Part shown: positions 9,164 through 10,251 of the stretch, in pieces
How the letters are laid out: every line of letters starts with the position of its first letter
Position numbering within the stretch: the first letter of the stretch is position 1
Source of the DNA: an uncultured Candidatus Binatia bacterium
Lineage (GTDB): Bacteria > Desulfobacterota > Binatia > Bin18
DNA: 64,000 nucleotides
Assembly: GCA_958296235.1 (NCBI GenBank)
Contig: OY282457.1
Location: 4,025,338-4,089,337, forward strand
Direction of reading: 5' to 3'
Program-made: the position numbers and the translations under genes
The notes under the pieces: generated by a model
The model's database searches: none
The model's input: only the letters and a program-made list of their open reading frames with translations
Told to the model about the DNA's origin: nothing

Positions 9164-9382
9164 CTAATTGCGGTCCACCCAGTCTTTGCCGGTCTGAAGG
9201 GCATATCCGTTGGCTTCTTCTTCGTTGGCAAAAGTTTGCTCGGTTCCCCGGAGCGGATAAAATTCATCGACCACCCCATCGATTAACCGAAAGACCCGGG
9301 CCACCGGTTTCCACGCGCCACTATCGAGTTGTTTCGAGCGCGGCTCAATGTAAAAACCCTCATATTCTTCGGTATCCGGCAT
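9164..9382 (-). CDS. Small conserved protein, unknown function
   Basis: 72 residues, starting MPDTEEYEG and ending GKDWVDRN. The pattern of a GFYIEPRS strand, a KPVARVF strand and a TFANEEEANGYAL helix suggests a compact alpha+beta fold. It is faintly like the C-terminal HlyU/DUF6566-type domains, but I cannot assign it firmly. The start at 9382 has a GGAGG site; a longer frame to 9475 would run into the upstream gene. It lies 28 bases after the glutaredoxin-like gene on the same strand, so the two are probably co-transcribed. Confidence 0.6.
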   Translation of the reverse strand: MPDTEEYEGFYIEPRSKQLDSGAWKPVARVFRLIDGVVDEFYPLRGTEQTFANEEEANGYALQTGKDWVDRN

Positions 9383-9410: not shown

Positions 9411-9650
9411 TCAGGCAATTCCCAATAGCTCCTGGAGCCTGGCCTTCTGAAAACCAATAATGACCGCGTCATCAACAGTAATCACCGGTAAAGAGACCCG
9501 ACCCGGAAGTTGCCGGAGCCGCTCCTGGGCCGCGGTGTCAGTACTGACATCATAGGCGGTGAATGCTATGCCTGCCTGCGAAAGAAACTCCTTCGCCATT
9601 GTGCATGGGCCTCAGGTGGGGGTGGAATAGACGGCAACCTGTTTCTTCAT
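9411..9650 (-). CDS. Glutaredoxin-like protein with probable selenocysteine (in-frame UGA)
   Basis: A frame starting MKKQVAVYSTPT at 9650 meets UGA at 9614-9612, then continues GPC-TMAKEFLSQ to the stop at 9411, 79 codons plus stop in all. The product has the glutaredoxin/NrdH-like layout: a first strand, the redox motif, a helix, then LPVITVDD (the cis-Pro TVP-like region) and the closing IIGFQ. The UGA replaces the first Cys of the CxxC motif, giving UGPC with the second Cys kept. Downstream codons stay open and family-like, and a SECIS-like hairpin follows. Sec-containing glutaredoxin-like proteins are known. A nonsense mutation is the alternative; starting at the later ATG (9599) would remove the redox motif. 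No strong ribosome site is seen before 9650. Confidence 0.7.
9578..9596 (-). promoter_or_regulatory. Candidate bacterial SECIS hairpin
   Basis: Beginning 15 bases after the UGA, GCGAAG pairs with TTTCGC (five Watson-Crick pairs and one G-U) around the 7-base loop GAGTTTC. The loop begins with G and lies about 22 bases after the UGA. Known bacterial SECIS elements have a short stem, a G among the first two loop bases and a loop 16-37 bases after the UGA, so this fits. It would bind SelB to direct Sec insertion. Confidence 0.55.
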
Positions 9651-9732: not shown

Positions 9733-10251
9733 ATGCTTATTCGAGCCGAAAAAGAGAGCGATCGGACGGCAGTCTGTCGCATCAATACAGCAGCCTTTGC
9801 AACGCCGGCTGAGGCCGCGCTTGTTGAAACGCTGCGGGAATGCGTACAACCGCTTATTTCGTTCGTTGCCGAGGTGGACGCAGCAGTTGTCGGTCACATC
9901 ATGTTCTCGCCGGTCTCGGTGTCGGCAGACCCGAGGCTCAGAATGATGGGGTTGGCCCCGATGGCAGTGGCGCCGGCATATCAACGCCAGGGCATAGGTT
10001 CGGCTCTTGTGCGGGCCGGCCTTGCGCGCTGCAAAGCGCTGGCATTCTGCGCAGTCGTCGTTCTCGGTCACCCGGAGTATTATCCCCGCTTTGGTTTTTT
10101 ACCGGCCTCCCGGTTCGGGCTCCGCTGCGAATATAACGTTCCTGACGGGGTGTTTATGGCAATGGAACTGGAACCTGGAGCCTTTGAGCGGTGCATCCAT
10201 AGTGGCCAGCGCAGCGTGGTAAAATACCATACCGCGTTCAGCACTGTATAA
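9733..10251 (+). CDS. GNAT family N-acetyltransferase
   Basis: 172-residue acetyltransferase of the YhbS-like group. The acetyl-CoA binding loop is seen in VAPAYQRQGIGSALVRAG (the Q/RxxGxG/A motif), after the central strand MGLAPMAV. The C-terminal YYPRFGF pattern is common in this group, whose targets are mostly unknown. The ATG at 9733 follows a GGGGAG site. It is transcribed away from the glutaredoxin gene and is followed by about 100 bases before the peptidase gene. Confidence 0.85.
   Translation: MLIRAEKESDRTAVCRINTAAFATPAEAALVETLRECVQPLISFVAEVDAAVVGHIMFSPVSVSADPRLRMMGLAPMAVAPAYQRQGIGSALVRAGLARCKALAFCAVVVLGHPEYYPRFGFLPASRFGLRCEYNVPDGVFMAMELEPGAFERCIHSGQRSVVKYHTAFSTV

Follow-up and report, generated by a model that had tools for sequence, protein, structure and literature searches.

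The window analysed here, a 64,000-nucleotide stretch of DNA from an uncultured Candidatus Binatia bacterium, carries on its minus strand a short glutaredoxin-like reading frame in which a UGA stands at the position of the first redox cysteine. Does this UGA end the gene, or is it read as selenocysteine (Sec)? The window lies within the single contig that makes up the 4.62 Mb genome of this member of Ca. Binatia, and the features of the locus are as follows.

9411..9650 (-): predicted selenoprotein gene encoding a 79-aa glutaredoxin-like (YruB/NrdH-type) protein, MKKQVAVYSTPT-U-GPC..., with the TGA read through; based on PF00462, TIGR02196, selection and an AF2 model
9612..9614 (-): in-frame UGA, codon 13, predicted to be read as selenocysteine, the attacking residue of UGPC; UGA or Cys in homologues
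9603..9605 (-): codon of Cys16, expected to act as the resolving cysteine of UxxC; invariant in alignment A1
9597..9599 (-): internal Met, codon 18, the ATG that ordinary gene callers would pick; CTG or GCA in relatives
9578..9596 (-): bacterial SECIS hairpin within the coding sequence, with an 8-bp stem GCGAAGGA/UCUUUCGC and the loop GUU at 9588-9586; pairing conserved in homologues
9164..9382 (-): downstream gene for a 72-aa protein with weak DUF6566/HlyU similarity (Pfam 2e-4, below cut-off)

Reading frame and hairpin around the UGA

Translation from the ATG at 9650 yields MKKQVAVYSTPT-UGA-GPCTMAKEFLSQAGIAFTAYDVSTDTAAQERLRQLPGRVSLPVITVDDAVIIGFQKARLQELLGIA, which runs up to another UGA at 9413-9411, and Cys16 follows three codons past the in-frame TGA (9614-9612) to give U-G-P-C, which bears out the original prediction that the UGA occupies the first redox Cys position. 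The frame was also said to be family-like on both sides of this codon, and with Cys in place of UGA it matches PF00462 (Glutaredoxin) at 5e-16, with the S/T-T-P-T-U residues conserved before the UGA. Ordinary gene calling on the window reports just a 62-aa ORF starting at 9599, the later start that had been anticipated. No strong ribosome-binding site is visible upstream of the ATG at 9650. The gene is real, and standard annotation would truncate it. A first look through the window for other UGA-containing genes (long frames with the TGA read through, combined with Pfam) gave no convincing Pfam-supported extension.

The hairpin GCGAAGGA-GUU-UCUUUCGC starts 15 bases after the UGA, forms 8 bp and has G as the first base of its apical loop, so that its position, stem and loop G are all as originally proposed. 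It thereby has the form expected of a bacterial SECIS, namely a hairpin just past the UGA, in coding sequence, with a small apical loop containing G. The folding energy of the isolated hairpin region is unremarkable (z -0.89), and an Rfam search over 8-11 kb of the window returned nothing credible. When the window's own sequence was recoded synonymously 20,000 times, all eight pairs arose just 57 times, and because such pairing is rare under recoding and the hairpin is conserved, it represents more than chance.

The hairpin has hardly changed in base sequence among 30 homologues with UGA, 28 of which form 7-8 of the 8 pairs; the other two are L075 with 6 pairs and L044 with 3 in register, where a shifted pairing is possible by eye. 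Homologues with Cys (n=10) have 2-6 of the 8 pairs, and the difference between the two groups has a Mann-Whitney p of 1.6e-6, the compared sequences being related and not independent. The UGA homologues average 7.5 of 8 pairs, compared to 4.7 +/- 0.18 (maximum 5.5 in 2000 trials) under synonymous recoding that used the codon usage of their own genes. Furthermore, L062 carries a compensatory double change in the stem from C-G to U-A, and the loop G comes from a Glu codon that is GAG in all UGA homologues (30/30) and mixed in the Cys homologues.

The UGA in relatives and the selenocysteine machinery

The relatives are metagenome assemblies (MAGs). Within the genus, codon 13 is UGA in G003, G005, G006 and G001, and G002 has TCA (Ser) there; in another genus of the family, G011 (L028) has UGA in a protein that is 60% identical. 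None of the genus has TGC or TGT at this codon, and since the same UGA is present in independently assembled relatives, a local sequencing error cannot account for it. In the phylum sample, 79 of 395 genomes contain a homologue (E 1e-9), a large share of them with exactly one internal TGA. The codon was read at the best-scoring loci, which are not an unbiased sample, and the column contains 30 UGA, 10 Cys (TGT or TGC) and 1 Ser (TCA) in the main lineage, to which paralogue loci add 7 UGA and 1 TGT; the resolving Cys is present in 49/49 loci. UGA homologues reach down to 40-50% identity across the phylum and alternate with Cys homologues, so the UGA is not unique to this genome. Plasmid records contain distant homologues only, all under 60% identity, and the best match among them, from Acetoanaerobium, has TGT at the column.

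The decoding of UGA as Sec further depends on the sel genes, and all four, selA, selB, selC and selD, are present in the same genome, at the following genome coordinates.

2956302-2956393: selC, tRNA-Sec with anticodon UCA (68.6 bits, over cut-off)
about 2954362-2955738: selA, near selC (TIGR00474, 595.7 bits)
1539268-1541157: selB (385.7 bits)
256428-257342: selD (309.8 bits), inside a 772-aa frame

The machinery is not confined to this genome, as tRNA-Sec passes its cut-off in 6 of the 7 genomes that represent the genus, and selB does so in 15 of 16 from the family. By eye, SelD is fused behind an N-terminal NADH dehydrogenase-type flavoprotein-like domain (L019 211-2529, +). In addition, a degenerate second tRNA-Sec copy that lacks about 16 bases of the variable arm (L009 10798-10878, (-), 52.9 bits) lies 1 kb from selC (9799-9894), in this genome only of the genus. 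The 5' flank of selC occurs in three copies within 2 kb, with the repeat also present from L009 11723 onward, and an ORF that is HNH-like by eye lies in between. The second copy looks like a duplication or an element insertion at selC.

Three other explanations of the in-frame UGA have to be weighed. If the UGA were a true stop, the working gene would be the shorter ORF from ATG 9599, which contains no redox motif and is what standard gene finding reports. However, the equivalent of this ATG is CTG in L025 and L027 and GCA in L028, and this lack of conservation of the start removes the main rival; the conservation across the phylum of the residues before the UGA, the homologues with Cys in its place and the Sec machinery of the genome also argue against it, which makes a true stop very improbable. 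It is harder still to credit that the gene recently became a pseudogene through an ordinary nonsense mutation. Other lesions do exist in two congeners, a Ser at the catalytic position in one and a frameshift in the other, but the same UGA and hairpin recur in independent lineages at 40-60% protein identity, and the UGA is conserved outside the genus. Within the genus, comparison with four congeners gives dS of 0.31-0.39, dN of 0.04-0.06 and dN/dS of about 0.1-0.2, and by this substitution pattern the protein after the UGA is kept by purifying selection; ahead of the UGA there are 12 codons, not enough to estimate dN/dS firmly.

A changed genetic code, with UGA specifying a standard amino acid such as Trp, has nothing in its favour beyond the UGA standing in frame, and it is contradicted by a tRNA-Sec with anticodon UCA together with selA, selB and selD, by a homologous column that has Cys and not Trp, by the use of UGA as the gene's own terminator, and by the first look through long frames of the window, which brought up no convincing Pfam-supported case; its probability is next to nil. 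As judged from sequence, then, the gene almost certainly encodes a Sec-containing glutaredoxin-like thiol:disulfide oxidoreductase with the in-frame UGA read as Sec. What the sequences show directly is the gene itself, the Sec machinery, and a UGA and hairpin that are both conserved; the proposed decoding would run as follows. When the ribosome arrives at the UGA of codon 13, SelB carrying Sec-tRNA(Sec) would be recruited by the hairpin that begins 15 bases further on, still within the coding sequence, and Sec would be inserted in place of termination. In the predicted catalytic cycle, Sec13 would be the nucleophile that attacks and Cys16 the residue that resolves, and disulfides or similar bonds in putative partner proteins would be reduced.

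The lesions in the congeners deserve separate mention. G002 (L023, 1501-1737) has TCA (Ser) at the Sec codon though selB, the hairpin and a second Sec-glutaredoxin are intact, and this TGA-to-TCA change is possibly a recent loss of Sec or a sequence error. The tRNA-Sec was not found in the G002 assembly, which is fragmented. In G001 (L027, 1501-1789), a 52-base internal insertion, a partial duplication, shifts the frame, and a search for the selenoprotein gene in G004 gave no match. Owing to the Ser in G002, the frameshift in G001 and the missing match in G004, the gene seems to be dispensable, or in decay, in some members of the genus.

Family placement and comparison with known selenoredoxins

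With C for U, the protein scores 59.1 bits with PF00462, well above the cut-off of 22.9. The best of the finer models is TIGR02196 (YruB family; 2.9e-23), which is covered nearly in full at 82.1 bits, somewhat under its cut-off of 88.55. Scores with the NrdH redoxin model TIGR02194 (49.3 bits, cut-off 85.75), Uxx-star NF041212 (48.6 bits, cut-off 66) and the classical GSH-dependent Grx3 model TIGR02181 (44.5 bits, cut-off 90) also fall short. Alignment A1 has the superfamily motif, with U/C13, C16 and P55 (the cis-Pro position) invariant, and contains LPV and IIGF where TVP and GG would stand. TVP and GG are the GSH-site motifs of GSH-binding glutaredoxins, and because they are missing, the term YruB/NrdH-like selenoredoxin suits the window protein best. 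The AF2 model built from the alignment (pLDDT 94.5) has a glutaredoxin fold that matches BC3987, cGrx1 and NrdH/Grx structures, with Grx/NrdH structures at the head of the PDB list. The initial assignment as glutaredoxin-like is thus supported by PF00462 and the fold, and can be refined in that YruB/NrdH-like redoxins and cGrx1 resemble the protein more closely than a classical GSH-binding glutaredoxin does.

Sec at the attacking Cys of such proteins is uncommon, as had been stated, but it is well documented (PMC1088965, PMC1794560, PMC13188914, PMC7642778). Reports of Sec-glutaredoxins with UxxC go back to 2005 and cover the Sargasso Sea, Geobacter, Alkaliphilus and Moorella (PMC1088965; PMC1794560; review PMC13188914 Table 1). 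The window protein shares with this family the PF00462 fold, UxxC, the in-frame UGA with a bacterial SECIS and widespread Cys homologues, and differs in its taxon, Binatia, for which no earlier report of a Sec-glutaredoxin was found in the literature searched. In Clostridium (Alkaliphilus) oremlandii OhILAs, cGrx1 occurs naturally as a selenoprotein, and its motif is U(C)PXC (PMC7642778). Its structures (PDB 7c10/7c12/7c13) rank near the top in the fold comparison (TM 0.87-0.91, rmsd 1.3), with about 40% identity over the full length, whereas the window protein has UGPC, not UPxC, and comes from a different phylum. In C. oremlandii the MsrA partner is also a selenoprotein; a paired Sec-MsrA of this kind was not found here, the one MsrA found in the genome having no in-frame stop.

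Members of the YruB family (TIGR02196) need not contain Sec. NrdH redoxins share with the window protein the fold (1h75, 4fiw, 4hs1) and a single G-F replacing the GSH-binding GG motif, and a scan of neighbouring genes turned up no ribonucleotide reductase. Proteins of the Uxx-star family (NF041212) are related in fold and carry Sec at the equivalent position, whereas the window protein keeps the resolving Cys (UxxC). Tentatively, and with more doubt than confidence, one may ask whether these proteins form a subgroup of UxxC selenoredoxins that spans the phylum, lies between YruB, NrdH and cGrx1, has near-identical SECIS elements at 40-50% protein identity and might serve a specific partner unlike that of the GSH-dependent glutaredoxins.

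The same genome encodes a second Sec-glutaredoxin at 969769-969990 (L036 1498-1749, +), which is of the Grx3 type with STDY-U-GFC and passes the Grx3 model TIGR02181 (99.1 bits). It has UGA in all congener copies found, a hairpin of its own, and Cys in G014. Glutathione synthetase is present in the genome, and the two Sec-glutaredoxins might plausibly divide the labour between them. In all the congener loci that were read (L023-L027), the 72-aa gene downstream adjoins the selenoprotein gene, at 90-94% identity; it was not found at L028. It is probably co-transcribed with the selenoprotein gene, and its product is a possible functional partner.

Significance for Binatia and for Sec decoding

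The known picture of selenoproteins is unchanged by this locus, as Sec-glutaredoxins with UxxC were already known; what is added is a well-supported selenoprotein with complete Sec machinery for a Ca. Binatia genus. The near-fixed SECIS with its matched UGA and Cys homologues offers a neat set for tests of SelB recognition, and the natural TGA-to-TCA variant with an intact hairpin is a test case for Sec loss. With regard to the organisms themselves, selenium is probably important in the redox physiology of this uncultured Binatia group.
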